Shown here: one piece after another, positions 4,857 through 19,957 of the stretch
How the letters are laid out: the number at the start of each line of letters is the position of its first letter
How positions within the stretch are numbered: the first letter of the stretch is position 1
Assembly (NCBI RefSeq): GCF_004363075.1
Contig: NZ_SNYN01000002.1
Location: 310,001-374,000 of the forward strand
DNA length: 64,000 nt
Source: Actinorugispora endophytica
GTDB lineage: Bacteria; Actinomycetota; Actinomycetes; Streptosporangiales; Streptosporangiaceae
Reading direction: 5' to 3'
Program-made: the position numbers and the translations under genes
Notes under the pieces: generated by a model
Database searches by the model: none
Told to the model about the DNA's origin: nothing
The model's input: the letters and a program-made list of their open reading frames with translations, nothing else

Positions 4857-6211
4857 CGGCCGTCCGCCTCCCCGGCGAGGGCGCGGTGGGCGCGGCGGCC
4901 CGCCAGGGCGGCCGCGTCGGCGGTGACGGTGCGCGGCTCGCCGGACTCCACGACCGTCTCGCCGCCGACGAGCAGGAGCTCCAGCGGGGGAGCGGGGCCG
5001 AAGACCAGGGCGACCACCGGGTCGTCGACGACGTCGCGGCCGAACCCGTCGACCCGCCACAGGGCGACGTCGGCGAGCCTGCCCGGCTCCAGCGTCCCGA
5101 TCTCGCCGTCCCGGCCCAGGCAGCGGGCCCCGCCGACGGTGGCGATCCGGAGGGCCTCGCGGGCGCTCAGCGCCCGGGGGCCCTTGCGGGCGCGGGCCAT
5201 CAGCAGCGCCTGGCGCATCTCGCCCGACAGCGGGGTCAGCTCGCTGGAGGCGGGGCCGTCCACGCCCAGGCCCACGGTCGCCCCGGCGGCCAGCAGCTCG
5301 GTCACCCGGCAGATCCCCGCGCCCAGGCGGGCGTTGGAGGTGGGGCAGTGCGCGACGCCGGTCCCGGTGGCCGCGACGCGGTCGACCGCCGCGTCGGACA
5401 GGTGCACGGCGTGCGCGAGCCACACGTCCGGGCCCAGCCAGCCGAGCTCCTCGGCGTACTCCACCGGGGTGCGGCCGGACTCGGCCAGGCACCGGCGCTC
5501 CTCGTCGGCGGTCTCGGCGAGGTGGGTGTGCAGGCGCACCCCCTTGTCGCGGGCCAGCCGCGCGGTCTCGACCATCAGGTCGCGGCTGACCGTGAACGGC
5601 GAACAGGGGGCGACCGCGACGCGGGTCATGGAGCCGAAGGACGCGTCGTGGTGGGCGTCGACCGCGTCGGCCGTGGCCTCCAGCGCCTCGTCGAGGCCCT
5701 CGACGACGCTGTCGGGCGGCAGCCCGCCCCGGGACGCGCCCCGGTCCATGGAGCCGCGGGCCAGGTCCAGCCGGATCCCGACGGCGCGGGCGGCCGCCAC
5801 CTCGGCGTCGACGATGTCGCCGCGCCCCTCGGGGAAGACGTAGTGGTGGTCCGAGGCGGTCGTGCAGCCCGACAGCGCCAGCCAGGTCAGTCCAGCGGTC
5901 GTGGTGTCCGCGACGACGCCCGCGTCCAGGCGGCGCCAGAGCTCGTAGGAGCCCGCCAGCCACTCGAACAGGGCGCTGTCCGCGAACAGGCCCTGCGTGG
6001 CCCACTGGTACAGGTGGTGGTGCGTGTTGACCAGGCCGGGCGTGGCGAGGCAGCCGGTGCCGTCCACGTACCGGGCGCCGGGGAGGCGCGGCGCGGGGCC
6101 CGCCCCGACCCGGTCGATCCGCCCGTCGACGGCGACGACGTGGCCCGAGGGGTACTCGGCGCCCGCGACGGTCGCGACGTGGGCGTTGTCGATGACCACG
6201 GTCCGGCTCAC
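4853..6211 (-). CDS. Amidohydrolase of the 8-oxoguanine/guanine deaminase type
   Basis: 452-residue metal-dependent aminohydrolase. Metal-binding and catalytic motifs are in order: NTHHHLYQ (HxH, beta-strand 1), HTHLAETADEE (strand 5), HAVHLSD (strand 6) and GLGVDGPASSE (strand 8 Asp). The NTHHHLYQ form is typical of 8-oxoguanine deaminases and hydroxyatrazine hydrolases. It would convert an amino-purine to the oxo form that feeds the neighbouring xanthine dehydrogenase. GTG start at 6211 has GGGGAGG six nt upstream and overlaps the 2Fe-2S subunit stop (GTGA). It sits between the small and large dehydrogenase subunits and overlaps both, arguing for co-expression. Exact substrate uncertain (8-oxoguanine, guanine or related). 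Confidence 0.8.
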   Translation of the reverse strand: MSRTVVIDNAHVATVAGAEYPSGHVVAVDGRIDRVGAGPAPRLPGARYVDGTGCLATPGLVNTHHHLYQWATQGLFADSALFEWLAGSYELWRRLDAGVVADTTTAGLTWLALSGCTTASDHHYVFPEGRGDIVDAEVAAARAVGIRLDLARGSMDRGASRGGLPPDSVVEGLDEALEATADAVDAHHDASFGSMTRVAVAPCSPFTVSRDLMVETARLARDKGVRLHTHLAETADEERRCLAESGRTPVEYAEELGWLGPDVWLAHAVHLSDAAVDRVAATGTGVAHCPTSNARLGAGICRVTELLAAGATVGLGVDGPASSELTPLSGEMRQALLMARARKGPRALSAREALRIATVGGARCLGRDGEIGTLEPGRLADVALWRVDGFGRDVVDDPVVALVFGPAPPLELLLVGGETVVESGEPRTVTADAAALAGRRAHRALAGEADGR

Positions 6212-6720
6212 CGGGCGCCTCCCCGGACGGCGGCGTCGGCGCGCTCGGCCGCCAGGCGCACGGCCTCGACGATCGCCTCGTACCCCGTGCAGCGGCACAG
6301 GTTCCCGGCCAGGTGCTCGCGGATCTCGGCGTCGCCGGGCACGCCCAGGCCCCGGCGCGCGGTCCGCCCGACCAGGTCGTCGGCCTGCACCAGCAGGCCC
6401 GGGGTGCAGAAGCCGCACTGCACGGCCCCGGCCTCCAGGAACGCCTCCTGGACGGCGTCCAGCCGCTGCCCGCCGCCGGGGGACGACAGGCCCTCCACGG
6501 TGCGCACCCGCCGGCCGTGCGCCTGCCCGGCGGCGACCATGCAGGCGCACACCGTCACCCCGTCCAGGTACACCGTGCAGGAGCCGCACTCGCCCTGCTC
6601 GCAGGCGTTCTTGCTGCCGGGCAGGCCGAGCCGCTCGCGCAGCACGTACAGCAGGCTCTCCCCGGCCCACACGTCGTCGGCCGTGACCGGACGGCCGTTG
6701 ACCTCGAATGTCACGCGCAC
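6208..6720 (-). CDS. Xanthine dehydrogenase-type 2Fe-2S subunit
   Basis: 170-residue small subunit carrying two [2Fe-2S] clusters that pass electrons from the Mo site to FAD. The plant-ferredoxin-type motif CEQGECGSC...C is followed by the second-cluster motifs QCGFCTPG and CRCTGY. GTG at 6720 is preferred over the in-frame GTG at 6714 because GGAGG lies 6 nt before it. It overlaps the 3' end of the FAD subunit by 10 nt. Length and motif order match PucE/CoxS-like proteins. Confidence 0.9.
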   Translation of the reverse strand: MRVTFEVNGRPVTADDVWAGESLLYVLRERLGLPGSKNACEQGECGSCTVYLDGVTVCACMVAAGQAHGRRVRTVEGLSSPGGGQRLDAVQEAFLEAGAVQCGFCTPGLLVQADDLVGRTARRGLGVPGDAEIREHLAGNLCRCTGYEAIVEAVRLAAERADAAVRGGAR

Positions 6721-7580
6721 CGGGCGCCTCCTTCGCGGTAGTCGGCGGCGGCGCGCGCCAGCGCACGCCGGGCCAGGACGGCGAGGGCGTGCCTGCGGTA
6801 GCCGGCGCTGCCCCGCACGTCGTCGATGGGCCGGGCCGCCGCGGCGACCAGCTCCCCGAACCGGTGGACGGCCGACTCGGGAAGCGGCGCGCCGCCCTCC
6901 CAGTCGAACTCCGCGGCGGCGAACTCCTCGGCCCCGGGCGCGCGCAGCGGCGTCGGCCCGGCCGAGCCGATCCCGGTGCCGACGGTGCGGGAGCGGGCGT
7001 CGAGGGCCAGCGCGAAGGACACCACCGCGATGACCATCGCGTTGCGGGTGCCGACCTTGGCGAACCGCTGCGGACCGGCGGGCGCGGGCAGCAGCACCGC
7101 GGCGATCAGCTCGTCGTCGCGGCGGGCGGTGCGCCGAGGCCCCAGGTAGAACTCGCGGGCGGGCACGCGCCGGACGCCGCCGACCGAGGCGAGCTCGACG
7201 ACGGCGTCGGTGGCCAGCAGCGGCGGGTGCGCGTCCCCGGCCGGGGACGCGCCGCCGAGGTTGCCGCCGACCGAGCCCCGGTTGCGGATCTGCGGGGAGG
7301 CGACCGAGCGCGCGGCCGCGGCCAGCGCCGGGGCGGCCCCGCCCAGCGCGTCGACGATCCCGGTGTAGGGGACGCCCGCGCCCAGCCGCACGCCGTCCCC
7401 GTCGGCCCGCCACTCCCGCAGCCCGGGCACGCGCGTGAGGTCGATCAGCGCGGGGGGACGGCGCCGGTCGAAGTTGATCTCCACCATCACGTCCGTGCCG
7501 CCCATGATCGGCACCGCGTCGGGGCGCTCGCTCTTCGCGGCGAGCGCCTCCTCCCACGTGGCGGGGCTCAGGAACTCCAT
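6711..7580 (-). CDS. Xanthine dehydrogenase-type FAD-binding subunit
   Basis: 289-residue FAD subunit (CoxM/PucC-like). N-terminal PIMGGTDVMVEIN is the pyrophosphate-binding loop of this fold, QIRNRGSVGGNLGGASPAGD is the second FAD motif, and the C-terminal CO-dehydrogenase flavoprotein domain follows. It accepts electrons from the 2Fe-2S subunit and passes them to NAD or another acceptor. ATG at 7580 has GGAGG 3 nt upstream; an upstream in-frame ATG at 7667 would add an Arg/Val-rich extension lying inside direct repeats and is rejected. First gene of the operon, so its promoter should lie between 7581 and 7949. Confidence 0.88.
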   Translation of the reverse strand: MEFLSPATWEEALAAKSERPDAVPIMGGTDVMVEINFDRRRPPALIDLTRVPGLREWRADGDGVRLGAGVPYTGIVDALGGAAPALAAAARSVASPQIRNRGSVGGNLGGASPAGDAHPPLLATDAVVELASVGGVRRVPAREFYLGPRRTARRDDELIAAVLLPAPAGPQRFAKVGTRNAMVIAVVSFALALDARSRTVGTGIGSAGPTPLRAPGAEEFAAAEFDWEGGAPLPESAVHRFGELVAAAARPIDDVRGSAGYRRHALAVLARRALARAAADYREGGARCA

Positions 7581-7920: not shown

Positions 7921-7943
7921 CTGTCGGCGGATGCCCCTAGGGT
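7921..7943 (+). promoter_or_regulatory. RecA-independent DNA-damage-type promoter (RecA-NDp/PafBC-like)
   Basis: CTGTCGGCG-N8-TAGGGT. The recalled actinobacterial RecA-NDp consensus is TTGTCRGTG-N8-TAnnnT; this site matches 7 of 9 in the first box, has the exact 8-nt spacer and a matching -10. The ATG follows 6 nt after the -10, so the transcript is probably leaderless. The assignment to PafBC is inference. Confidence 0.5.
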
Positions 7944-7949
7944 CGCCCC

Positions 7950-10900
7950 ATGGAGAACACCCCCGCCATCCCCGAGAACCCGCCCGCGTGGTGGGCCGCG
8001 CTGCCCGAGCGGGAGCGCAAAGCGCTGGAGAAAGCCGAGAGGACACCCGCCCCCGGGGTGCGCGCGGTGCTGGCCGCCGTCGCCGAGAACGCGGCCGACC
8101 GGGTGGCCGGCCTGGCCGCCGCGCTGTCGCAGAAGGAACGGCGCTCCTGCGCGCGCCTGCTCACGGCGTGGAGCCGCATCCTGCACGAGACGTACGACCG
8201 GCGCCTGAACACGCTGGTGATCGCGGCCGTGCTCTGCCAGGACTCCCCCGCCTCCGTCGCGGACCGGATCATCACCCTGGGGCCCGGCGCCACCGGCCCC
8301 GAGACCGGCGGCAGGATACTGGAGGTCCTGGCCGACCGGCCCGGGGAGTGGCTGGCCGCCGTCGCGCACCACATCGTCACCAGGGACGGCGGGATGCATC
8401 TGAGGCGCCACTTCCCCCTGGTCGAGCACCTGATCCTGCTCTCCGACACCCCCGTGTCCGCGGACAGGCGGTTCGTCCTGGGCTGGATGAACGACCGCAC
8501 CCCCGGCTTCTCCTACGAGGACTCGGCCTGGCCCGACGTCGTCGAGGAGGGCTCGGAGCCCCGTGCGGAGTACCGGGACTGGGACCTGTTCGTCGAGCGG
8601 CTGCGCGCCGACCCCCTCCTGGACAGGGTCCTGCCGCACGTGTTCGAGGCGGAGGGAGCCGGCCACCTGATGCGGTGGAACAGGCACTGGGCGATCGTGC
8701 TGTCCGCGTTCGCCGGGAGCGGGCGGGTGGACCGGGCCGCCCTCGTGGACGGCGCGCTGGGGCGGCTGCTGCGTCCGGGGCGCCCCGACGAGCTGCGCGG
8801 TTTCCGGGAGCTGCTCGACGCGCTGGCGCCCACCGGGGACGAGTACGCGGCCCGCGTCCCCGCGCTGCTGGCGCTGCTGTCCGACACCCCCTCCAGTGTC
8901 GCGGGATACGCGCAGAAGATCCTGGTCGGGTTGGACGAGGCGGGGCGTCTGTCCGACGAGCACCTGGCGGAGGCGTCGGCGTCGGTGCTGTTCCGCACCG
9001 AGAAGACGCTGGTACGCGCCCAGTTGTCGTGGCTGGACAGGGCCGCGCGCCGGGACCGGTCGCGGGCGGGGGTCGCGGTGCTGGCCGCCGCCGACGCGTT
9101 CGGCCATCCCGACCCGGCGCTCCAGGAGCGCGCGCTGGCTCTGGTGGAGCGCCATCTGAAGCACGCCGGGGACGCGGTCCGCGCCGATCTGGCGGCGGCG
9201 GCCGAGGCGCTGAGCCCGGCGCTGCGCCCCCGCGCCGCCGAGCTCCCGGGCGTGCCCGGCGGCGTTCCCGGATCGGAGGCGGCCGTCGTGCTGCCCGCCG
9301 TGCCCGAGGCCCGGCCGGTCGCGCCGCCGGTGACGGACCCGGCCGAGGCCGCCATCGAGATCAACGCGATCCTGGTGTCCATGCGGAGCGGAAGAGGGAC
9401 CGGCCGGTACGAGGCATCGGGCCTCTCCGTCGACGTCCCCACGTTCGAGCGGGTCCTGGACGGGCTGGTGCGGTGCGCCCACACCGACCGCGACGCCCTC
9501 CTCGCGGAGCTGCGCGCCGTCGCCGGGGCCCACCCGTCGGAGAACTGCGCACCCAACGACGACTGGAACATGGGCGACGTCCGCTGGGTGGTCGCCGAGG
9601 TGCTGGGAGAGGAGCGGAGCCCGAACCGCTGGGACCCGGGGTACCCCCACTCCGTCACGACCGTATACAGACGCTCCTACCACGGTTCGGCTCCGTTGAA
9701 CGCGGTGCTGCGGGAGCGGTTGCGTGAGGTGGCGGGGATGGTGGCCGGCGGGGACGGGCCGCCGTTCCTGTTGGCGGTGCCGACCCTGTCGGACGGGCGG
9801 ATCGATCCGGCGGTGCTGGTGGACCGGATCGCGGGGTACGAGCGGCTGGGCGTGGTCCCGGGCGGGGTGGACCTGTCGCAGGCGCTGCTGCGGGTGGACA
9901 CCACGGCGGCCACTGAGGGGGTCCTGGCGGACGCGCGGCGGTTGTCGTCGGAGGCGGGGGCCGGGCTCGCCGCCTGGCTCGAAGCGGGCGGACTCCCCGA
10001 ACCCGAACCCCTCCGCTCCGACGTCGACGACTGCCCGTGCGGCGAAAGGTCCCCGAGTCACCTGCTGTTCGGCGCGGAGCGGCTGACCGCGCCGTGCGCG
10101 CTGCACGAGGTCTTCGGGCCCGTGCTGGGGCCCGCGCGCGGCCTTCTGCACGAGGTCTTCGGGCCCGTGCGCGGACTCCACCGCGCCGAAGTCCCCAGAG
10201 CGGGGATCGACCACTGGCCGGCGGTGGTCCCGACGCGGCGGGAACTGGTCGCCCTCCGCCTGCAGGAAGCGTTCGCCGGCCGGAAGGCGCTGCTGCTTCC
10301 GGAGCTGGCCGCGGCGCACGGCCAGGCCGGCCCCGTCCTGCACATGGGGGTGGCCTGCGGTCTGGGTTCGGACGAGGACGAGCACCGGACGGCGGCGGTG
10401 GACGCGCTGCTGGTCCTGGCCGCGCGCGGCGACCTCGACACGGGACTGCTGGCCCGCGAGGTCGCCGAGGCGGCGCGCTGGGGGACCGTCAGGCCCGAGA
10501 GCCTGGCCGGGTCGATGCGCTCGCTCATCGACGCGGGCCTCCACCACGCCGCGTGGGAGGCGCTGGAGGGGGCGCTGCCGTTCCTGATCGACGACCTCCC
10601 GGTGGAGCCGGGCTACACCCCGGGCATGAGCCGGTCCGAGAAGGCGCGGGTGGAGAAGACGCGGAAGCTGGCCGACGTCTTCGAAGTGGCCGTCGACTGC
10701 GCCCACCTGTGCGGCGCGCGGGGCGGAATCCCCCAGGTGGACATGGTGGCCGGGCAGAAGGGCTCCTCCCGCCTCCTCAAGGAGGCCCGCAGGCTGCGCG
10801 CGGTGCTCGGCGGCACGCCGCGCGCCGACGAGCGGGCCGGGGCGCGGCCGGCGCCGTCCGGACCCCGGCCGGTGGCGCCGCCGGTCACCGGCGCCGCCGA

Positions 10901-12380
10901 GGCCGCCGCAGGGGTCGCGGCGGTCCTGGAGTCCGTCCGGACCGACTGGTCCCACCACGCCTACGTCGTCGGCGCCGACGTCCCCGTGTTCGAGCGGGTC
11001 CTGGACGGGCTGGTGCGCTGCGCCCACACCGACCGCGACGCCCTCCTCGCGGAGCTGCGCGCCGTCGCCGAGGCCTACCCGTGGCGGGACTTCCGGCGCG
11101 AGCTGGACTGGAACATGGGCGACGTCCGCTGTGTGGTGGCCGAGGCGCTGGGCGAGGCCAGGGGCGCGGAGGTGTGGGACGCCCCGCGCGTGATCCCGGC
11201 GCCGCAGGTGGACGACCCCTACCACGGTTCGGCTCCGTTGAACGCGGTGCTGCGGGAGCGGTTGCGGGAGGTGGCGGGGATGGTGGCCGGCGGGGACGGG
11301 CCGCCGTTCCTGTTGGCGGTGCCGACCCTGTCGGACGGGCGGATCGATCCGGCGGTGCTGGTGGACCGGATCGCGGGGTACGAGCGGCTGGGCGTGGTCC
11401 CGGGCGGGGTGGACCTGTCGCAGGCGCTGCTGCGGGTGGACACCGGCGCGGCCACTGAGGGGGTCCTGGCGGACGCGCGGCGGTTGTCGTCGGAGGCGGG
11501 GGCCGGGCTCGCCGCCTGGCTGGAGGCCGGCGGACTCCCCGAACCGGTGACGACACAGGGAAAGGTGGTCGAGTGCGCGACCCCCAGGGAGGACCCGGCG
11601 TACTGGTGCGGGTGCCGGCTCCGCCTGGGGGCCCTGCCGGTGCTGTTCACCTCCGAGCGGTCGGCCGCCCCGTGCGCCCTGCACGAGGTGTTCGCCCCCG
11701 TGCTGGCGGAGAGGAGCGATCCCCAGCACCACTACGTCCCGGTCGGCAACATCGGCCACTGGCCCGCCGTCCTCCCGCTCGGGCGGGAACTGGTCGCCGT
11801 CAACCTGCAGAGCGCCTTCGTCGAGAGGAAGGCGCCGCTGCTTCCGGAACTGGCCGCAGCGCACGGCCAGGCCGGTCCCGTCCTGCACATGGGGGTGGCC
11901 TGCGCGCTGCTCTCGGACGCGGCCCGGGTCCGGATGACGGCGGTGGACGCGCTGCTGGCCATGGCCGGGCGTGGGGACCTCGACGCGGAGCTGCTGGCCC
12001 GTCTCCTGGTCGGGATGTTCCAGGAGAGCGGATGGATGTCCCCGTTCCCGAAAGCGTGGAACCTGGCCCGGACCGTGCGCGAGGCCACTCGCGGCGGCGC
12101 CCACGCCGTGGTGTGGCGGGTCCTGGTGCGGGCGCTGCCCGGCCTGCTCGCCGACGCGGAGAAGGCGCTGCCGGCGAACGAGAGCCGGTTCGAGGGCCGG
12201 CGCAGCGGCATCGAACGGGCGCGGTCCACGAGCGTTGTGCTGGCGGAGGCCGTCGAGTGCGCCCGGCGCAGCGGAGCCAGGGGCGAGATCCCCGAGTTGA
12301 GCGCGGCGGCCGCGCTGGAGGGCCCCGCCCATCTGGTCAAGGAGGCCCGCCGCCTGCGCGACGCGCTCGCGGGAGCCTGA
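7950..12380 (+). CDS. Giant DUF6493-like protein, paralogue 1 (duplicated C-terminal module)
   Basis: 1476 residues, soluble, no signal peptide or membrane segment. An N-terminal alpha-helical unit (~1-440) with HEAT-like helices is followed by a Pro-rich linker (RPVAPPV) and two copies of a ~500-residue module (~453-960 and ~970-1476). Each module has FERVLDGLVRCA, APLNAVLRERLREVAGM, PPFLLAVPTLSDG, ERLGVVPGGVDLSQALLRV and ends with a Cys-rich C..LCGARG- or C.RSGARG-type helix. Paralogue 2 has a single module, so this one looks like an internal duplication. I recognise the family as the actinomycete DUF6493 type by general sequence pattern. The biochemical function is unknown. No catalytic motif is visible; a protein-interaction scaffold is plausible. 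Confidence 0.72.
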   Translation: MENTPAIPENPPAWWAALPERERKALEKAERTPAPGVRAVLAAVAENAADRVAGLAAALSQKERRSCARLLTAWSRILHETYDRRLNTLVIAAVLCQDSPASVADRIITLGPGATGPETGGRILEVLADRPGEWLAAVAHHIVTRDGGMHLRRHFPLVEHLILLSDTPVSADRRFVLGWMNDRTPGFSYEDSAWPDVVEEGSEPRAEYRDWDLFVERLRADPLLDRVLPHVFEAEGAGHLMRWNRHWAIVLSAFAGSGRVDRAALVDGALGRLLRPGRPDELRGFRELLDALAPTGDEYAARVPALLALLSDTPSSVAGYAQKILVGLDEAGRLSDEHLAEASASVLFRTEKTLVRAQLSWLDRAARRDRSRAGVAVLAAADAFGHPDPALQERALALVERHLKHAGDAVRADLAAAAEALSPALRPRAAELPGVPGGVPGSEAAVVLPAVPEARPVAPPVTDPAEAAIEINAILVSMRSGRGTGRYEASGLSVDVPTFERVLDGLVRCAHTDRDALLAELRAVAGAHPSENCAPNDDWNMGDVRWVVAEVLGEERSPNRWDPGYPHSVTTVYRRSYHGSAPLNAVLRERLREVAGMVAGGDGPPFLLAVPTLSDGRIDPAVLVDRIAGYERLGVVPGGVDLSQALLRVDTTAATEGVLADARRLSSEAGAGLAAWLEAGGLPEPEPLRSDVDDCPCGERSPSHLLFGAERLTAPCALHEVFGPVLGPARGLLHEVFGPVRGLHRAEVPRAGIDHWPAVVPTRRELVALRLQEAFAGRKALLLPELAAAHGQAGPVLHMGVACGLGSDEDEHRTAAVDALLVLAARGDLDTGLLAREVAEAARWGTVRPESLAGSMRSLIDAGLHHAAWEALEGALPFLIDDLPVEPGYTPGMSRSEKARVEKTRKLADVFEVAVDCAHLCGARGGIPQVDMVAGQKGSSRLLKEARRLRAVLGGTPRADERAGARPAPSGPRPVAPPVTGAAEAAAGVAAVLESVRTDWSHHAYVVGADVPVFERVLDGLVRCAHTDRDALLAELRAVAEAYPWRDFRRELDWNMGDVRCVVAEALGEARGAEVWDAPRVIPAPQVDDPYHGSAPLNAVLRERLREVAGMVAGGDGPPFLLAVPTLSDGRIDPAVLVDRIAGYERLGVVPGGVDLSQALLRVDTGAATEGVLADARRLSSEAGAGLAAWLEAGGLPEPVTTQGKVVECATPREDPAYWCGCRLRLGALPVLFTSERSAAPCALHEVFAPVLAERSDPQHHYVPVGNIGHWPAVLPLGRELVAVNLQSAFVERKAPLLPELAAAHGQAGPVLHMGVACALLSDAARVRMTAVDALLAMAGRGDLDAELLARLLVGMFQESGWMSPFPKAWNLARTVREATRGGAHAVVWRVLVRALPGLLADAEKALPANESRFEGRRSGIERARSTSVVLAEAVECARRSGARGEIPELSAAAALEGPAHLVKEARRLRDALAGA
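9681..10001 (+). repeat. First of five nearly identical ~320-bp coding repeats in the DUF6493 genes
   Basis: The tract starting near CACGGTTCGGCTCCGTTG and running to about GGACTCCCCGAACC occurs at 9681-10001, 11223-11546, 14252-14574, 17246-17570 and 18784-19107 and is almost unchanged at DNA level, while flanking module DNA has diverged. It encodes APLNAVLRERLREVAGM...LAAWLEAGGLPEP. A second tract (about 8910-9230, 13502-13820, 16510-16830) is similarly conserved in the N-terminal units. Confidence 0.85.
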
Positions 12381-12420
12381 CCGGCCGGGCCTCCGCCGAA
12401 GAGGCGGAGGCCCGGCCGGT
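12380..12420 (+). terminator. 18-bp perfect hairpin at end of DUF6493 paralogue 1
   Basis: Arms 12380-12397 and 12403-12420 are perfectly complementary around the loop GAAGA. The stem starts on the last base of the stop codon. There is no T-run, as usual for high-GC actinomycete terminators. Confidence 0.75.
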
Positions 12421-12474
12421 CCCCGCTCCGGGACAACACGGAAGGGCTTCCCCGACGATCCAGGTCCCGGGGGT

Positions 12475-12497
12475 CTGTCGGCGGACGGCCCTAGGGT
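12475..12497 (+). promoter_or_regulatory. Second RecA-NDp/PafBC-like promoter
   Basis: CTGTCGGCG-N8-TAGGGT with the ATG of paralogue 2 seven nt after the -10. The block from CCAGGTCCCGGGGG to the -10 is the same as ahead of paralogue 1, so the promoter was duplicated with the gene. A leaderless transcript is likely. Confidence 0.5.
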
Positions 12498-12504
12498 CTC
12501 CTCC

Positions 12505-15354
12505 ATGGAAACCACTGCCCCCACCGTTCCCGGGAACCCGCCCGCGTGGTCGGCCGCGCTGCCCGAGCGGGAGCGGACCGTGCTGGAGAAGGCCGGGAAG
12601 ACGCTCACCGCCCAGACGCGCGCCGTGCTGTCGGCCGTGGCCGAGGAGAAGAACGACCGCCTGCCCGGTCTGGTCGCCGCGCTGTCGGAGCAGGAGCGGC
12701 GCGCCTGCGGGCGTGTGCTCAAGGCGTGGCTGGCGCCGATGCACGAGACCTCCGAGGACTACAGGGTGCGGACCTCCGAGGTGTGGCAGGCCGCCGAGCG
12801 GCGCAAGGAAGCGCTGAAGGTGGCGGGCGCGGGCTGCGCCACGGGCGCGGCCGACGCCGCCCGGTGGATCACCCACCGGAGCCTGTCGGAGCAGTGCGAC
12901 ACCTCCACCCTCCTGGAGGTCCTGCTCGACCGGCCCGCGGAGTGGCTGGCCGACGTCGCGCACCGCGTCGTGGCCCGGTCCGGCCGGGAGGACTGGCCGT
13001 GGGGCCGCTTCCCCCTGGTCGAGCACCTGATCCTGCGCTCCGGCGCCGCCGTGCCCACCGACGGGCGGTTCGTGATGGCGTGGATGAGAAACAGCATGTG
13101 GTACGACAGCGGATTCGCCTGGACCGACGTCCTCGACGGGAAGGCGGTGCTGCGCCGCGAGGGCCGGAAGTGGGACTCGTTCGACGAGCGGCTGCGCGAC
13201 GACCCCTTCCTGGACGACCTGGTGCCGCTGCTGTTCGAGGCGGACGGTGCCGGCCACCTGATGCAGCGGAGCGACCGGTGGATTCCCGCGCTGGTCGGGT
13301 TGGCCGGGGACGGGCGTCTCGACCGGGGGATGCTGGTCGACGGCGCGCTGGGGCGGCTGCTGCGTCCGGGCCGCCCCAACGAGCTGCGGGGCTTCCGGGA
13401 GCTGCTCGACGCGCTGGCGCCCACCGAGGACGAGTACGCGGCCCACACCGTCACGCTGCTGCGGATCCTGCCCGACGCGCCCTCGCCGGAGGCGGGCTAC
13501 GCCCAGAAGATCCTGGTCGGGTTGGACGAGGCGGGGCGTCTGTCCGACGAGCACCTGGCGGACGCGTCGGCGTCGGTGCTGTTCCGGCCGGAGAAGGTTC
13601 TGGTACGCGCCCAGTTGTCGTGGCTGGACAGGGCCGCGCGCCGGGACCGGTCGCGGGCGGGGGTGGTGGTGCCGGCCGCGGCCGTGGCGTTCGGCCATCC
13701 CGACCCGGCGCTCCAGGAGCGCGCGCTGGCTCTGGTGGAGCGCCATCTGAAGCACGCCGGGGACGCGGTCCGCGCCGATCTGGCGGCGGCCGTCGAGGCG
13801 CTGAGCCCGGCACTGCGCCCCCGCGCCGCCGAACTCCTGGGCGTTCCCGACAGCGTTCCCGGACCGGAGGCGGCCGCCGTGCTGCCCGCCGTGCCCGAGG
13901 CCCGGCCGGTCGCGCCGCCGGTGACGGACCCGGCCGAGGCCGCCATCGAGCTCAACGCGGCCCTGGCGGCCGTCCGGGACCGGTGGGTCGGCTACTCCCG
14001 CGACTACCGCGTCCTCATCGACGTCCCCGTGTTCGAGCGGGTCCTGGACGGGCTGGTGCGCTGCGCCCGCGCCGACCGCGACGCCCTCCTCGCGGAGCTG
14101 CGCGCCGTCGCCCGCGACCACCCGTGGCGGGAGGTCGGGGACGGCGACGACGACTGGGACATGGCGGGAATCCGCTGCGTGGTCGCCGAGGCGCTGGGCG
14201 AGTCCGAGGGCCCGAAGACGTGGGAGACCCGGCGGGCGGCCGGCGGCTACTACGGCACGGCTCCGTTGAACGCGGTGCTGCGGGAGCGGTTGCGTGAGGT
14301 GGCGGGGATGGTGGTCGGCGGGGACGGGCCGCCGTTCCTGTTGGCGGTGCCGACCCTGTCGGACGGGCGGATCGATCCGGCGGTGCTGGTGGACCGGATC
14401 GTGGGGTACGAGCGGCTGGGCGTGGTCCCGGGCGGGGTGGACCTGTCGCAGGCGCTGCTGCGGGTGGACACCGGCGCGGCCACTGAGGGGGTCCTGGCGG
14501 ACGCGCGGCGGTTGTCGTCGGAGGCGGGGGCCGGGCTTGCCGCCTGGCTGGAGGCCGGCGGACTCCCCGAACCGAAGGCGGACCGCGCGAACACCGCCGA
14601 CTGCTCCTGCGGGGACCGCCACGCCTCGCATCTGCTGTTCGCCTGGGAACAGGTGGCCGCGCCGTGCGCGCTGCACCCGGTCTTCGACGACGTGCTGGAC
14701 GGGAACCGCTACCCCCAGCACAGCCTCGTCCCGTACCGCAACAACGACCACTGGCCCGCGGCGCTCCCGCTCGACCGCGAACTGGTCGCCCTGCACCTGC
14801 AGAAGCCGTTCCCCGAGGGCAGGGCGCCGCTGCTGCCCGCCCTGGCCGCCGCGCACGGCGCGGCCGGTCCCGTCCTGCACATGGGCGCGGCGAACGGGCT
14901 CGGGACGGACCACGCCGACGTCCGGGCGCAGGCGGTGGACGCGGTGCTGGTCCTGGCCGCGCGCGGCGACCTCGACACGGAGCTGCTGGCGGGGGAGCTG
15001 GCCGGGGCCGCGCGGCGCGGCCTCGACACCGAGGGGCTGGCCGAGTCGCTGCGCGCGCTGGTCCACAGCGGCCTGCACGCCGTGGTGTGGGCGCTGCTGT
15101 CGGCGGCGCTGCCCGTCCTGGCCGACGACGTCCCCGCGGAGCTGCGGATCGTCAGGGACATGGACTGGACGCTGGAGAAGAGGGTCACGAGGGCGCGAGG
15201 GCTGACCGGAGTACTGGAGGTCGCCGCCGAGTGCGCCCGGCTGTGCGGAGCGGGGGGAGAGATGCCCCAGGTCAGCGCTCTGGCCGCCCGCAAGGGCGCC
15301 AACCGCCTGGTCAAGGCGGCCCGTACCCTGCGCACGGTCCTCGCGGGAAGCTGA
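12505..15354 (+). CDS. DUF6493-like protein, paralogue 2 (single C-terminal module)
   Basis: 949 residues, the shortest and probably the basic architecture: N-terminal helical unit (~1-455) containing KVAGAGCATGAADAARWI and the FRPEKVLVRAQLSWLDRAARRD motif, the linker EARPVAPPVTDPAEAA (~463), and one module (~467-949). The module holds a CxC motif (DCSCGDRHASHLLF) and ends ECARLCGAGGEMPQV...RTVLAG. No enzyme motif, signal or membrane helix is seen. It has its own promoter and is separated from paralogue 1 by a terminator, so the three genes are likely separate transcripts. Function unknown; family call by recognition of the general DUF6493 pattern. Confidence 0.72.
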   Translation: METTAPTVPGNPPAWSAALPERERTVLEKAGKTLTAQTRAVLSAVAEEKNDRLPGLVAALSEQERRACGRVLKAWLAPMHETSEDYRVRTSEVWQAAERRKEALKVAGAGCATGAADAARWITHRSLSEQCDTSTLLEVLLDRPAEWLADVAHRVVARSGREDWPWGRFPLVEHLILRSGAAVPTDGRFVMAWMRNSMWYDSGFAWTDVLDGKAVLRREGRKWDSFDERLRDDPFLDDLVPLLFEADGAGHLMQRSDRWIPALVGLAGDGRLDRGMLVDGALGRLLRPGRPNELRGFRELLDALAPTEDEYAAHTVTLLRILPDAPSPEAGYAQKILVGLDEAGRLSDEHLADASASVLFRPEKVLVRAQLSWLDRAARRDRSRAGVVVPAAAVAFGHPDPALQERALALVERHLKHAGDAVRADLAAAVEALSPALRPRAAELLGVPDSVPGPEAAAVLPAVPEARPVAPPVTDPAEAAIELNAALAAVRDRWVGYSRDYRVLIDVPVFERVLDGLVRCARADRDALLAELRAVARDHPWREVGDGDDDWDMAGIRCVVAEALGESEGPKTWETRRAAGGYYGTAPLNAVLRERLREVAGMVVGGDGPPFLLAVPTLSDGRIDPAVLVDRIVGYERLGVVPGGVDLSQALLRVDTGAATEGVLADARRLSSEAGAGLAAWLEAGGLPEPKADRANTADCSCGDRHASHLLFAWEQVAAPCALHPVFDDVLDGNRYPQHSLVPYRNNDHWPAALPLDRELVALHLQKPFPEGRAPLLPALAAAHGAAGPVLHMGAANGLGTDHADVRAQAVDAVLVLAARGDLDTELLAGELAGAARRGLDTEGLAESLRALVHSGLHAVVWALLSAALPVLADDVPAELRIVRDMDWTLEKRVTRARGLTGVLEVAAECARLCGAGGEMPQVSALAARKGANRLVKAARTLRTVLAGS

Positions 15355-15370
15355 CGGCCCGTCGCGCGAC

Positions 15371-15434
15371 TGCCGGTGATCCCGACGCCCCCGGGAACGG
15401 TCATAGCGGGGCGCTAGCGTCAAGATCACCGGCA
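15371..15434. repeat. Degenerate copy of the GGTGATC palindromic element
   Basis: Arms TGCCGGTGATC (15371-15381) and GATCACCGGCA (15424-15434) are perfect; the interior is diverged but keeps GTCAAGATCACC as in the 1055-1116 element. It lies 16 nt after the paralogue 2 stop, so it may serve as its terminator. Confidence 0.6.
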
Positions 15435-15490
15435 GGCCCCAGTGGGGCGCACTCCGGACACCGAACAGCCGAGCAGAATGGAAACCCCCC

Positions 15491-18400
15491 ATGGAAACCG
15501 TCTTCCCCGCAGACTCCGGGAACCCGCCCGCGTGGTCGGCCGCGCTGCCCGAGCGGGAACGGGCCGTGCTGGAGAAGGCGGTGCCGGAGAAGGCCGGGAA
15601 GACGCTCACCCCCCAGGCGTCGGCGGTGCTGGCGGCGGTGGCCGACGGCGCGGCCGAGCGCCTGCCGGAGTTGGTCGCCGTGTTGTCGGAGCAGGAGCGG
15701 CGTTCCTGCCTGCGCCTCCTCAGGGCGTGGCTGGCGCCGATGCACGAGACCTCCGAGGACTACGGGACACGGACCCCGGAGGTGTGGCAGGCCGCCGAGC
15801 GGCGCAAGGAGGCGCTGAGGGTGGCGTGCGCGGGCTGCGCCGCGGGCGCGGCCGACGCCGCCAAGTGGATCACCCACCGGAGCATCGAATGGTCGAGGGG
15901 CAACGACCTCCTGGTCCTGCGGACCCTGGCCGAACGGCCGAAGGAGTGGCTGGCCGACGTCGCCCAGCGCGTCCTCGCCCGCACCAGCCGCGACGACCTG
16001 GCCTGGGGCCGCTTCCCCCTGGTCGAGGGGCTGGTCGCGCTCTCCGACGCCCCCGTCTTCGCGAACGAGCGGTTCGTCCTGGGCTGGTTGAACGACCGCA
16101 CCCCCAACTGGTCCTTCACGGGGTCCGCCTGGCCCGACGTCGTCGATGAGGGCTCGGAGCCCCGTGCGGAGTACGGGGACTGGGACCTGTTCGTCGACCG
16201 GCTGCGCGCCGACCCCTTTCTCGACAGGGTCCTGCCGCACGTGTTCGACGCCGACGGCAGCGGCCACCTGATGCAGCGGAGAAAGCACTGGGCGATCGTG
16301 CTGTCCGCGTTCGCCGGGAGCGGGCGTCTCGACCGGGGGATGCTGGTCGACGGCGCGCTGGGGCGGCTGCTGCGTCCGGGGCGCCCCAACGAGCTGCGGG
16401 GCTTCCGGGAGCTGCTCGACGCGCTGGCGCCCACCGGGGACGAGTACGCGGCCCACACCGTCACGCTGCTGCGGATCCTGCCCGACGCGCCCTCGCCGGA
16501 GGCGGGCTACGCGCAGAAGATCCTGGTCGGGTTGGACGAGGCGGGGCGTCTGTCCGACGAGCACCTGGCGGAGGCGTCGGCGTCGGTGCTGTTCCGCACC
16601 GAGAAGACGCTGGTACGCGCCCAGTTGTCGTGGCTGGACAGGGCCGCGCGCCGGGACCGGTCGCGGGCGGGGGTCGCGGTGCTGGCCGCCGCCGACGCGT
16701 TCGGCCATCCCGACCCGGCGCTCCAGGAGCGCGCGCTGGCTCTGGTGGAGCGCCATCTGAAGCACGCCGGGGACGCGGTCCGCGCCGATCTGACGGCGGC
16801 GGCCGAGGCGCTGAGCCCGGCACTGCGCCCCCGCGCCGCCGAACTCCTGGGCGCGTCGGAAACCGGGGAGCAGGCCGGTCCGGCCGTCGTGCTGCCCGCC
16901 GTGCCCGAGGCCAGGCCGGTCGCGCCGCCGATCACCGGCGCGGCCGAGGTCGCCATCGAGATCAACGCGATCCTGGTGTCCATGCGGAGCGGAGGAGGGG
17001 AGGCATCGGGCCTCTCCGTCGACGTTCCCGCGTTCGAGCGGGTCCTGGACGGGCTGGTGCGGTGCGCCCGCGCCGACCGCGACGCCCTCCTCGCGGAGCT
17101 GCGCGCCGTCGCCGAGGCCCACCCGTGGGGGATGCACCGGTGCGGTGACGACTGGCACCCGGGCGACGTGCGCCACGTGGTCGCCGAGGCGCTGGGAGAG
17201 GAGCCGAGGAAGGCCGATTGCGGGTACCAGGGGTTCTGGCACCCCCACGGTTCGGCTCCGTTGAGCGCGGTGCTGCGGGAGCGGTTGCGTGAGGTGGCGG
17301 GGATGGTGGCCGGCGGGGACGGGCCGCCGTTCCTGTTGGCGGTGCCGACCCTGTCGGACGGGCGGATCGATCCGGCGGTGCTGGTGGACCGGATCGCCGG
17401 GTACGAGCGGCTGGGCGTGGTCCCGGGCGGGGTGGACCTGTCGCAGGCGCTGCTGCGGGTGGACACCGGCGCGGCCGACGAGGGGGTCCTGGACGATGCG
17501 CGGCGGTTGTCGTCGGAGGCGGGGGCCGGGCTCTCCGCCTGGCTCGAAGCGGGCGGACTCCCCGAACCCGAACCCGTCCGCGAGGACGTCGGCGCCTGCC
17601 GGTGCGGTTACTTCCAGAAGAACCACCTGATGTTCGTCCACGAGGGGCTGACCGCGCCGTGCGCGCTGCACGAGGTCTTCGCGCCCCTCCTGGGAACCGG
17701 ATCCGCGCCCCGGAGCAGGACCGTCCCCGATTCGGGGGTCGACGGCTGGTCGGCGGCGCTCCCTCTCCGGCGCGAACTGGTCGCCCTGCACCTGCAGCAG
17801 GCGTTCCTCAACGGCAAGGCGCCGCTGCTGCCCGTCCTGGCCGAGGCGCGCGGAGCGGCCGGTCCCGCCCTGCACCTGGGCGTGGCCTGCGCTCTGGGCT
17901 CGAAACGGGAGGAGCACCGGACGGCGGCGGTGGACGCGCTGCTGGCCATGGCCGCGCGCGGCGACCTCGACACAGGACTACTGGTCAGCGAAATGGTCGA
18001 AGCGGTCCGCTACGGGGTCGTCGAACCCGGGGGCCTGGCCGCGTCGACGCGCGCGCTCGTCGGTCTCGGATTCCACCGCACGGCGTGGGCGGCACTGGAG
18101 GCGGTGCTGCCGATCCTGATCGAGGCGTCCCCGCTGGAGCCCAACTACACCAAGTACATGAACTGGCAGGAGAAGGACCGGGTAGCGAAGACGCGGGAAC
18201 TGGGCGAGGTCGTGGAGGCGGCCGCCGAGTGCGCCCATCTGTGCGGCGCCAAGGGCGAGATCCCCCAGGTGAGCGCCCTGGCCGCGCGCAAGGGATCGGG
18301 ACGGCTGCTCAAGGCGGCCCGCACGCTGCGCGGCGCTCTCGGTGGTGGGGCCGCCTCCGCCGACGGCTCCGGAGCGGTCCCCGACGCCGCGCCGCCCGCC

Positions 18401-19957
18401 GTCTTCGAGGCCCGGCCGGTCGCGGCGCCGATGGGCGGCGCCGCCGAGGTCGCCGACGGGATCGACGCGATCCTGGCGTCGGCGTGGTTCGACCGGATCC
18501 ACCGGGCCCGCGTCGTCCCCGTCGACGTCCCCGCGTTCGAGCGGGTCCTGGACGGGCTGGTGCGGTGCGCCCGCGCCGACCGCGACGCCCTCCTCGCGGA
18601 GCTGCGCACGACCGCCGAGCGCCACCCGTGGCGGGACTTCCCCCGGGAGACGGACTGGAACACGGGAGACGTGCGCCGCGTGGTCGCCGAGGCGCTGGGC
18701 GAGGCCACGGGCGCGGAGCTGTGGGAGGAACCGGGCGAGGAGCCGGAGGAAGCCTACTGCGACTTCCACGAGGCGCGGCACCACCACGGCACGGCTCCGT
18801 TGAACGCGGTGCTGCGGGAGCGGTTGCGGGAGGTGGCGGGGATGGTGGCCGGCGGGGACGGGCCGCCGTTCCTGTTGGCGGTGCCGACCCTGTCGGACGG
18901 GCGGATCGATCCGGCGGTGCTGGTGGACCGGATCGCGGGGTACGAGCGGCTGGGCGTGGTCCCGGGCGGGGTGGACCTGTCGCAGGCGCTGCTGCGGGTG
19001 GACACCGGCGCGGCCACTGAGGGGGTCCTGGCGGACGCGCGGCGGTTGTCGTCGGAGGCGGGGGCCGGGCTCGCCGCCTGGCTGGAGGCCGGCGGACTCC
19101 CCGAACCCGAACCCGTCCTGGGCGGTGTGCTGCCCTGCGACCTCTCCTCGCGGGAGGAGAGGAAGGAGGACAAGTGCTACTGCAGGGTCCACCACGGCGA
19201 CGGCTTCTGGAACCTGCTGTTCGGCTACGAGGGGCTGACCGCCCCCGGTGAGCTGCACGAGGTGTTCGCCCCCGTGCTGGCGGGCGGCCGCGACAAGCCC
19301 CAGCACGGCTACGTCCCGTCCGAGAACGCCGGGCACTGGCCGGCCGCGGTCCCGCTCCGGCGCGAACTGGTCGCCCTGCACCTGCAGAGGACGTTCCTCG
19401 ACGAGGAGGCGCTGCTGCTTCCGGCGCTGGCCGCCGCGCACGGCGCGGCGGGCCCGGTCCTGCACGTGGGCGTGGCGCGCGGGATGAACTCGCGGGCGGC
19501 CTGCCACCGGACCGCGGCGGTGGACGCGCTGTCGGTCCTGGCCGCGCGCGGCGACCTCGACGCGGCGCTGCTGGGCCGCTTCCTGGCCGAGGCGGTCCAG
19601 GTCAGGGGCAGTGGCTACCACACGAAGGAGACCCTGGTCACGACGGTGCGAGAGGCGGTCCGCCGCGGCGCGCACGCCGTGGTGTGGGCGGTCCTCGCGG
19701 AGGCGCTGCCGGTCATGCTCGCGGATGTCGACGAAGCGAAGGCGCTGCGACCGAACGAAGACCTGAACTGGTCGGAGCAGTACACGGCCTCGGACGCGCG
19801 GTCCGCGTCCGTGGTGCTGGCGGAGGCCGTCGAGTGCGCCCGGCGCAGCGGAGCCAGGGGCGAGATCCCCGAGGTGAGCGCGCTGGCCGCGCGGGAGGAG
19901 CCCGTCCGCCTGGTCGAGGAGGCCCGCCGCCTGCGCGACGTCCTCGCGGGGGTCTGA
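15491..19957 (+). CDS. Giant DUF6493-like protein, paralogue 3 (duplicated C-terminal module)
   Basis: 1488 residues: N-terminal unit (~1-465), module 1 (~474-965) and module 2 (~974-1488). Its N-terminal unit is closest to paralogue 2 in the first ~130 residues (AWLAPMHETSEDYGTRTPEVWQAAERRKEALRVACAGC) and closest to paralogue 1 further on (SEPRAEYGDWDLFVDRLRADPFLDRVLPHVF), suggesting mosaic origin. CxC motifs occur in both modules (CRCGYFQKNHLMF and CYCRVHH). No RecA-NDp-like promoter is visible upstream, unlike paralogues 1 and 2. ATG at 15491 is used; the ATG at 15478 is out of frame. Function unknown. Confidence 0.72.
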   Translation: METVFPADSGNPPAWSAALPERERAVLEKAVPEKAGKTLTPQASAVLAAVADGAAERLPELVAVLSEQERRSCLRLLRAWLAPMHETSEDYGTRTPEVWQAAERRKEALRVACAGCAAGAADAAKWITHRSIEWSRGNDLLVLRTLAERPKEWLADVAQRVLARTSRDDLAWGRFPLVEGLVALSDAPVFANERFVLGWLNDRTPNWSFTGSAWPDVVDEGSEPRAEYGDWDLFVDRLRADPFLDRVLPHVFDADGSGHLMQRRKHWAIVLSAFAGSGRLDRGMLVDGALGRLLRPGRPNELRGFRELLDALAPTGDEYAAHTVTLLRILPDAPSPEAGYAQKILVGLDEAGRLSDEHLAEASASVLFRTEKTLVRAQLSWLDRAARRDRSRAGVAVLAAADAFGHPDPALQERALALVERHLKHAGDAVRADLTAAAEALSPALRPRAAELLGASETGEQAGPAVVLPAVPEARPVAPPITGAAEVAIEINAILVSMRSGGGEASGLSVDVPAFERVLDGLVRCARADRDALLAELRAVAEAHPWGMHRCGDDWHPGDVRHVVAEALGEEPRKADCGYQGFWHPHGSAPLSAVLRERLREVAGMVAGGDGPPFLLAVPTLSDGRIDPAVLVDRIAGYERLGVVPGGVDLSQALLRVDTGAADEGVLDDARRLSSEAGAGLSAWLEAGGLPEPEPVREDVGACRCGYFQKNHLMFVHEGLTAPCALHEVFAPLLGTGSAPRSRTVPDSGVDGWSAALPLRRELVALHLQQAFLNGKAPLLPVLAEARGAAGPALHLGVACALGSKREEHRTAAVDALLAMAARGDLDTGLLVSEMVEAVRYGVVEPGGLAASTRALVGLGFHRTAWAALEAVLPILIEASPLEPNYTKYMNWQEKDRVAKTRELGEVVEAAAECAHLCGAKGEIPQVSALAARKGSGRLLKAARTLRGALGGGAASADGSGAVPDAAPPAVFEARPVAAPMGGAAEVADGIDAILASAWFDRIHRARVVPVDVPAFERVLDGLVRCARADRDALLAELRTTAERHPWRDFPRETDWNTGDVRRVVAEALGEATGAELWEEPGEEPEEAYCDFHEARHHHGTAPLNAVLRERLREVAGMVAGGDGPPFLLAVPTLSDGRIDPAVLVDRIAGYERLGVVPGGVDLSQALLRVDTGAATEGVLADARRLSSEAGAGLAAWLEAGGLPEPEPVLGGVLPCDLSSREERKEDKCYCRVHHGDGFWNLLFGYEGLTAPGELHEVFAPVLAGGRDKPQHGYVPSENAGHWPAAVPLRRELVALHLQRTFLDEEALLLPALAAAHGAAGPVLHVGVARGMNSRAACHRTAAVDALSVLAARGDLDAALLGRFLAEAVQVRGSGYHTKETLVTTVREAVRRGAHAVVWAVLAEALPVMLADVDEAKALRPNEDLNWSEQYTASDARSASVVLAEAVECARRSGARGEIPEVSALAAREEPVRLVEEARRLRDVLAGV

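Follow-up and report, generated by a model that had tools for sequence, protein, structure and literature searches.

Tandem genes for HEAT-like solenoid proteins in Actinorugispora endophytica and their putative tie to a clamp-like SWIM partner and the DNA damage response

The window analyzed here, a stretch of 64,000 nucleotides from contig NZ_SNYN01000002.1 of Actinorugispora endophytica (assembly GCF_004363075.1, positions 310,001 to 374,000), carries an array of three consecutive, co-directional genes on the forward strand, whose uninterrupted open reading frames (ORFs) encode proteins of 1476, 949, and 1488 residues (proteins 1, 2, and 3). Each protein begins with an N-terminal helical unit of about 450–470 residues, followed by modules of about 475–515 residues, of which proteins 1, 2, and 3 hold two, one, and two, respectively. 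The borders between N units and modules were placed by hand from alignments, and the DNA shows matching direct-repeat families with five in-register module copies and three N-unit copies. A preliminary description had reported three giant tandem genes sharing an N-terminal unit and one or two modules of some 500 residues, and both observations stand. Codon usage also favored the array ORFs over overlapping ones, which is weak support given that the training set included the array genes.

The same description had called the proteins DUF6493-like. The DUF6493 profile (PF20103) scores only 15.2, 22.3, and 15.9 bits in proteins 1, 2, and 3, all below its gathering cut-off of 25 bits, and the likeness survives through DUF7824 (PF25148), which passes its cut-off of 27.5 bits in proteins 1 and 3 (47.7 and 48.7 bits) and remains below it in protein 2 (23.5 bits). 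DUF7825 (PF25149) reaches 15.7 bits in protein 1, under its cut-off of 27.4 bits, and gave no match at E ≤ 10 in proteins 2 and 3. By these scores, the array proteins fit only weakly into the DUF6493/DUF7824/DUF7825 architecture, as divergent relatives of the DUF6493/DUF7824 family. The profile search led to no well-characterized enzyme family: Pfam returned no enzyme domain for the array proteins, and searches of NCBIfam, PADLOC, and PHROGs with all three gave nothing better than E 0.06. One relative on a plasmid carries the annotation “DUF6493 family protein”. In the open-licence PubMed Central (PMC) literature, we found no mention of DUF6493, DUF7824, DUF7825, or their Pfam accessions and no function in print, in agreement with the claim that the function is undescribed; the retrieved passages of PMC10910872, PMC7159879, and PMC11272600 likewise do not mention the DUF6493 family.

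The host genome (5.25 Mb in 44 contigs) contains two further family genes on another contig, paralogues D (C5, 105.0–107.9 kb) and E (C5, 143.2–146.2 kb), which are 54–55% identical to protein 2 and pass the cut-offs of DUF6493 (28.8 and 27.4 bits) and DUF7824. A FastTree phylogeny of 101 family proteins groups the array proteins in a single clade (support 1.0), which is joined by D and E (support 1.0), and the expansion therefore took place within the lineage of the host; for the genus, the search covered only the host genome. Proteins with two module cores are rare, making up 2 of the 119 called family genes, both from the window; 111 of the 119 have one core and six, all short or partial calls, have none.

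An AlphaFold model of protein 2, built from 40 sequences, is almost wholly helical (mean pLDDT 87.3, pTM 0.66). Foldseek searches of the PDB with this model returned HEAT/armadillo solenoids, among them SF3b, importins, Scc2, and CAND1, with a best E of 2.1e-4, and VIA gave Z scores of up to 14.5. We do not claim kinship to these proteins, since helical models reach VIA Z scores of 13–14 by chance and the scores are thus near what helical repeats give in any case; conversely, families missing from such match lists may still be related. A PDB sequence search with protein 2 gave no match at E ≤ 1. According to this model, the array proteins are all-alpha HEAT-like solenoids, and the structure prediction of protein 2 points to no characterized enzyme family. 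In the core motif DLxQALLR, the D, Q, and R are kept in 40 of 40 sequences; the motif recalls a clamp-binding peptide, a resemblance that we do not use as support.

Comparison of the five modules revealed a core of 100 codons that has been homogenized by gene conversion while its flanks diverged. Over ungapped columns, residue identity is 94–100% inside the core and 52–66% outside. At fourfold-degenerate sites, 1–7% of positions differ in the core and 15–24% outside, a difference seen in 10 of 10 pairs (Fisher p from 0.01 to 5e-5), with core borders that were picked after viewing the alignment; over residues 599–677 of protein 2, the five array copies are identical at 56 of 56 shared fourfold sites. 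Mere protein constraint as the cause of this identity is ruled out, because 34–43% of the fourfold sites in the core differ between array modules and D or E, in contrast to next to none within the array. In the array-versus-D/E comparisons, the core even exceeds the rest in divergence; this holds for 10 of 10 pairs and reaches significance in three. Between D and E themselves, 1 of 72 fourfold sites differs in the core and 12 of 173 outside (p 0.12). From the identity at silent sites, we conclude that gene conversion acts in the array and does not reach beyond the best-conserved stretch of the module. The array thus offers a clear natural example of duplicated modules in which gene conversion is restricted to a core.

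Selection on the copies was assessed with pairwise codon models (GY94 with F3x4 codon frequencies, which allow for about 95% GC at third positions). The ratio of nonsynonymous to synonymous rates, omega, was 0.35–0.54 for the modules and 0.39–0.46 for the N units; in the least conserved columns it ranged from 0.18 to 0.76, none of the fits exceeding 1, and a codon run of IQ-TREE on the least conserved module columns gave 0.409. Single selected sites could escape the pairwise test. Raw nonsynonymous divergence exceeds synonymous divergence in many windows (pN > pS), which we judge to be saturation and not positive selection, since no GY94 omega exceeds 1. All copies are intact; every full-length comparison shows constraint and omega stays at or below 1 throughout, so that the copies are not decaying and the codon models lend no support to positive selection on the variable parts. 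The idea of a growing modular scaffold, voiced in the preliminary description, holds in the form of helical, lineage-specific paralogues with duplicated modules.

That description had also linked the family, elsewhere, to MoxR, VWA, and SWIM genes and noted that these are missing locally; indeed, we saw no SWIM or MoxR/VWA gene beside the array, the upstream neighbors being judged from translations without a family scan. For SWIM, the association is real in the wider family. Paralogue E overlaps the 3' end of a SWIM zinc-finger gene by 4 nt, and the profile of this SWIM partner has a single match in the host genome, as against five solenoid genes. Of 40 loci from genomes of the same family, 39 have a called family gene, and in 22 of these 39 a SWIM gene immediately precedes that gene, or the run of such genes, on the same strand; in named actinobacteria, including Streptomyces, Micromonospora, Actinoplanes, Actinomadura, Lentzea, and others, this is the case in 50 of 61. 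The latter loci came from a second profile scan of the contigs, with alignment A3, after a first had been empty, and as all loci were chosen by family match, these adjacency rates are not population rates. At least five loci are in both sets (L090, L092, L093, L135, L138) and L121 repeats L120; they were kept in the adjacency and promoter counts, but neither the tree nor the pair comparison below includes them. Adjacent same-strand family genes occur in 10 of 100 loci, one of which, L143, consists of short fragments.

The two genes also occur together across genomes. Among 200 evenly drawn genomes of the same family, 82 have both, one (G012) has the solenoid alone, four have the partner alone, and 113 have neither (Fisher p 4.8e-50 in a test that ignores the kinship of genomes), so that a relative of protein 2 is present in 83 and the SWIM partner in 86; each search was positive in 31 of 68 genera. 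Most positive genomes have one partner match and several solenoid matches, counted as matches and not as genes: four solenoid or eight partner candidates were scored per genome, and one gene can give two matches. A few partner matches are fragments, including that in G131. At locus L047 of this genome, the DUF6493 gene is shortened (473 residues called), and of the partner profile just positions 413–448 survive as a remnant; G131 looks as if it were losing the solenoid–partner pair. We then compared linked pairs with each other, using 58 of 64 pairs (L045 was also dropped). Partner identity exceeded the identity of the linked solenoids in 1653 of 1653 comparisons, with means of 63% and 37%.

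MoxR and VWA fared differently. Together with DUF5682 and another SWIM-type gene, they belong to a separate DUF5691 locus. DUF5691 was found in 17 of 41 genomes searched and not in the host, and in six DUF5691 loci no called protein matches the DUF6493 or the partner profile, on which grounds we reject a MoxR/VWA partnership. Kinship between DUF5691 and DUF6493 is likewise rejected, as hhalign gave a probability of 0.6 and no alignment, and the SWIM protein of the DUF5691 locus shares only the zinc finger with the SWIM partner.

To what might the solenoids be partners? The best-scoring model of the SWIM partner, made from 21 sequences, has a mean pLDDT of 68.2 and a pTM of 0.65. Foldseek found 156 PDB matches at E ≤ 0.001, and the best 50 of the 156 are PCNA, 9-1-1, beta clamps, or complexes holding them. 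VIA-align placed a Sulfolobus PCNA subunit on top (Z 15.4, root-mean-square deviation 3.1 over 215 residues of a chain of 244), and clamps account for 50 of 50 among the matches listed; models without a clear match typically reach a best Z of 7–8. Of the 21 partner proteins, 21 match SWIM and 19 match DprA_WH at E ≤ 1. These matches lead us to predict three parts in the partner, namely a PCNA-like clamp, a DprA-like winged helix, and a SWIM finger. The invariant charges on the predicted channel helices comprise five R/K and one D/E, compared with 11 and 11 elsewhere, but the overall share of K/R is 0.11 in both regions, so that this asymmetry is only suggestive. Recombination is known to involve SWIM proteins such as Shu2/Sws1. 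This fact, the DprA_WH and SWIM matches, and the moderate quality of the model in its clamp part would also suit a mediator of recombination or DNA uptake, with a winged helix and a SWIM finger that bind DNA and a clamp-like part that is no ring but a non-encircling solenoid platform; since, over 215 residues, the structural matches point specifically to clamps, we hold this to be very unlikely. In the open-licence PMC literature, we found no mention of “SWIM zinc finger” together with DNA damage in actinobacteria; the terms SWIM domain, sliding clamp, and bacteria co-occur in one review, PMC9097270. As a separate observation, the third DnaN domain has two matches in the host genome (G000:C1:837046-837369 and C1:897437-897805), as in several relatives, in addition to the predicted clamp–SWIM gene.

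A second line of evidence comes from a promoter-like element, which was first spotted by reading the intergenic DNA before genes 1 and 2; the interval of the preliminary description began at its first base, 7921, 29 nt upstream of the ATG of gene 1. A pattern built from both array sites has no other site in the window at ≤3 mismatches and none in 100 shuffles. With the core pattern, the host genome has five sites at ≤3 mismatches (control 0), one of which precedes by 7 nt the start codon of the SWIM partner, a gene located on a different contig. The element resembles the RecA-NDp consensus of the RecA-independent DNA damage promoters of actinobacteria, quoted in a passage of PMC5656591 as “tTGTCRgtg - 8 nt - TannnT”. 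Excerpts of further papers describe this motif as the route by which PafBC acts (PMC6789036), report that single-stranded DNA activates PafBC (PMC11804915), and place RecA-NDp before SCO6735, described as UV-inducible, in Streptomyces (PMC5087735).

In 104 sequences, we scored the best site between positions −250 and +60 relative to each called gene, taking at least 10 of the 12 consensus positions as strong. Strong sites are present before 47 of the 74 partner genes and before 21 of the 44 solenoid genes that do not directly follow a partner, but before 0 of the 73 that do and only 11 of the 1267 other genes; raising the threshold to 11 positions leaves 26 of 74, 11 of 44, 0 of 73, and 0 of 1267. 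The distribution indicates that the element stands at the head of the unit, whichever of the two genes comes first. When similar upstream regions are removed, a strong site remains before 43 of 65 partner genes and 20 of 42 solenoid genes with no partner directly in front. Reversed, permuted, and reverse-complement motifs gave 0 of 74 and 0 of 44; with the spacer changed to 6 or 10 nt, no more than 4 of 74 and 1 of 44 had a strong site. The reverse-complement control matched 34 of the 1267 other genes, which we took to be divergent neighbors of family genes. In 57 of the 68 strong sites, the element lies 6–8 nt before the next ATG or GTG, reading frame not considered, a spacing that would fit the −10 position of a leaderless transcript. 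Since a hairpin follows gene 1, this gene and gene 2 are probably transcribed separately; a scan for the sigma-70 consensus found no promoter. Judged by this element, genes 1 and 2 would belong to the PafBC (RecA-NDp) regulon and gene 3 would not. The coordinates of the features are collected in Table 1.

Table 1. Features of the solenoid gene array and its SWIM partner (positions in the window unless a locus is named).
Feature	Position	Strand	Remarks
Gene 1 (A)	7950-12380	+	1476 aa; N unit and two modules
Gene 1, N-terminal helical unit	7950-9308	+	residues 1-453
Gene 1, module 1	9309-10817	+	residues 454-956
Gene 1, module 2	10863-12377	+	residues 972-1476
Gene 2 (B)	12505-15354	+	949 aa; N unit 12505-13899, one module 13900-15351
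Gene 3 (C)	15491-19957	+	1488 aa; N unit 15491-16909, modules 16910-18337 and 18410-19954
Homogenized core, copy 1 (repeat family D1), gene 1	9621-9920	+	
Homogenized core, copy 2, gene 1	11163-11462	+	
Homogenized core, copy 3, gene 2	14191-14490	+	
Homogenized core, copy 4, gene 3	17186-17485	+	
Homogenized core, copy 5, gene 3	18725-19024	+	
RecA-NDp/PafBC-like element before gene 1	7921-7944	+	10/12 consensus positions; TAGGGT 6 nt before ATG
RecA-NDp/PafBC-like element before gene 2	12475-12498	+	10/12 consensus positions; TAGGGT 7 nt before ATG
Hairpin 3' of gene 1	12379-12421	+	19 bp, -51.5 kcal/mol, z -7.7; no T run listed by terminator scan
SWIM partner protein	L012:5833-7209		459 aa; predicted clamp region residues 45-289, then winged helix, SWIM finger

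Taken together, the partner and the promoter point to DNA damage rather than to conflict, and we lean toward reading the array as the solenoid part of a DNA-damage-inducible clamp–solenoid module of actinobacteria. Under such a scheme, damage would expose single-stranded DNA and activate PafBC, as published for mycobacteria and presumed here for the host. PafBC would then initiate transcription at RecA-NDp-type promoters, placed 6–8 nt ahead of the start codons of the partner gene and of numerous solenoid genes that do not follow a partner, a step for which the motif is in place and induction is supposed. The partner, with its predicted clamp, winged helix, and SWIM finger, would bind or encircle DNA at sites of damage or recombination; DUF6493 solenoids would dock on the clamp, perhaps via the conserved core, and their variable surfaces would recruit or position clients. 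In the host, one clamp gene would serve five solenoid genes, and the two-module proteins could bridge two clamps or two clients. Tandem duplication and gene conversion of the core, as seen at the silent sites, keep the shared part alike while the flanks diverge. Damage induction, DNA binding, docking of solenoid on clamp, and the adaptor role are what we infer. A further step, to a second, damage-induced clamp system in which a two-domain PCNA-type ring with a winged helix and a SWIM finger is served by multiplying DUF6493 adaptors, is a tentative and, at present, doubtful extension.

Several observations weigh against the damage-inducible clamp–solenoid module. On the side of linkage, 17 of 39 and 11 of 61 solenoid loci have no adjacent partner, like the array in the window, and the contact between clamp and solenoid is putative. 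The clamp fold is that of a single model, the other four having mean pLDDT values of 48–54. At the level of sequence, hhalign of the partner, with a shallow alignment (Neff 1.8), against 12 DnaN proteins gave a probability of 0.4, no clamp is among the PDB sequence matches of the partner, and in the one partner shown in full DprA_WH scores 19.8 bits against a cut-off of 22.9. Concerning the promoter, a site at 10/12 is missing before 27 of the 74 partner genes and before 23 of the 44 solenoid genes that do not follow one; in the host, the best sites of gene 3 and paralogue D reach 8/12 and 9/12, and those of the array and the partner are themselves degenerate, the former at 10/12 and the latter 3 mismatches away from the array sequence. 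A search of the host genome for the exact pattern gave 6 matches, against 2 for the control; the two array sites aside, no match sits immediately ahead of a called start and no locus reads as recA, so that the host genome offers no positive control. One of the matches, at L190 (G000:C3:80584-80605), is about 200 nt upstream of a gene for an NAD-dependent DNA ligase-like protein and inside the preceding ORF. Finally, an initial search reported in a passage of PMC9380542 suggests that the motif of M. smegmatis is not conserved in S. venezuelae.

The last points, that is, the want of a control such as recA, the lack of the element before gene 3 and part of the family, and its doubtful conservation in S. 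venezuelae, would be expected if the array were an ordinary paralogue expansion of an intracellular scaffold with no role in damage, its promoter element merely resembling RecA-NDp. However, the full consensus of 12/12 stands before ten family genes, sites of at least 10/12 precede 68 of 118 as opposed to the 11 of 1267 others, and the element depends on its 8-nt spacer, which makes ordinary expansion quite improbable in our estimate.

The preliminary description had also proposed a diversifying conflict-type system. One could envisage an anti-phage or anti-plasmid system switched on by single-stranded DNA or damage, with the clamp on invading or replicating DNA and the solenoids as sensors or adaptors against invaders. 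The solenoids do evolve faster than the partner, they are amplified, partly in tandem, and modular, and some 7 kb upstream there is a Gabija-type pair of GajA and GajB genes; the activation of PafBC by single-stranded DNA, as stated in the passage of PMC11804915, might also report phage replication. Nevertheless, PADLOC (2023) gave no match better than E 2.1 for the three array proteins, the phage collection gave none, and only 6 of 72,556 plasmid records matched, at low coverage. Moreover, no omega exceeds 1, with module values of 0.35–0.54 as given above, no nuclease, protease, or other toxin domain was recognized, and the neighbors are of a housekeeping type. The proposal is therefore unproven, and we consider it unlikely. 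As a whole, the earlier interpretation is partly supported. The survey of copy number and neighbors showed, in the loci covered, a SWIM partner mostly directly upstream and a single module core in nearly all family genes.

With the damage-inducible module, a widespread actinobacterial gene pair of undescribed function gains a testable role in the DNA damage response. If the partner is a real PCNA-like clamp, it would be a dedicated second bacterial clamp with expandable adaptors, parallel to the damage clamps of eukaryotes; such a system would be the bacterial counterpart of the clamp tool belt or of 9-1-1, with one clamp shared in the host by five adaptors, two of them double-headed. The promoter result also bears on a question that PMC9380542 leaves open, namely whether Streptomyces and its relatives have a working PafBC-type response.

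Of the genes around the array, a short-chain dehydrogenase lies downstream. Upstream, at 2454-7580 on the reverse strand, translations indicate xanthine-dehydrogenase/CO-dehydrogenase-type subunits and an amidohydrolase-like gene, without a family scan. Flanking genes were compared in four relatives and proved uninformative: the PstS-like neighbor has relatives of 78–79% in G085 and G131 and of 40–44% in G065 and G066, and the dehydrogenase subunit has relatives of 33% and 65–69%, respectively. The window begins inside the GajB-like helicase gene (62-1033), which a GajA-like gene precedes; the Gabija-type pair is at L013:8986-12033 (contig C2, about 308.0–311.0 kb), and the called GajA covers the best profile only from position 169, so that its start may be miscalled or the gene truncated. 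Elsewhere in the window are a multi-domain cellulase (32252-35050, forward strand) with CBM4/9, CelD N-domain, GH9, Fn3, and CBM2, and, at 54962-57112 on the reverse strand, a 716-residue protein with split UvrD-like helicase matches that we take to be possibly HelD-like.

Several known systems lend themselves to comparison. With DUF6493/DUF7824/DUF7825 proteins, the array proteins share the order of domain matches, with DUF7824 over its cut-off in two of them and DUF6493 below it in all three; unlike in that family, the module is duplicated in two of the three. They have the same all-alpha solenoid form as HEAT/armadillo proteins such as SF3b, importins, Scc2, and CAND1, without a claim of kinship. 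The DUF5691 locus resembles the solenoid–partner pair in that its large DUF protein has a neighbor with a SWIM-type zinc finger, but the profile of DUF5691 is unrelated to DUF6493, and DUF5691 was not found in the host. With the PafBC/RecA-NDp regulon, the pair shares the motif: the same consensus stands just before the start codons of many family and partner genes, and neither gene is named in the literature passages seen. Relative to the sliding clamps (PCNA, beta clamp, 9-1-1), the partner adds a winged helix and a SWIM finger, without support from sequence profiles. PCNA has two domains per chain and the bacterial beta clamps have three, according to PMC8357120; the region of the partner that matches PCNA is predicted to share its two-domain layout and would thus differ from the three-domain clamps of bacteria.

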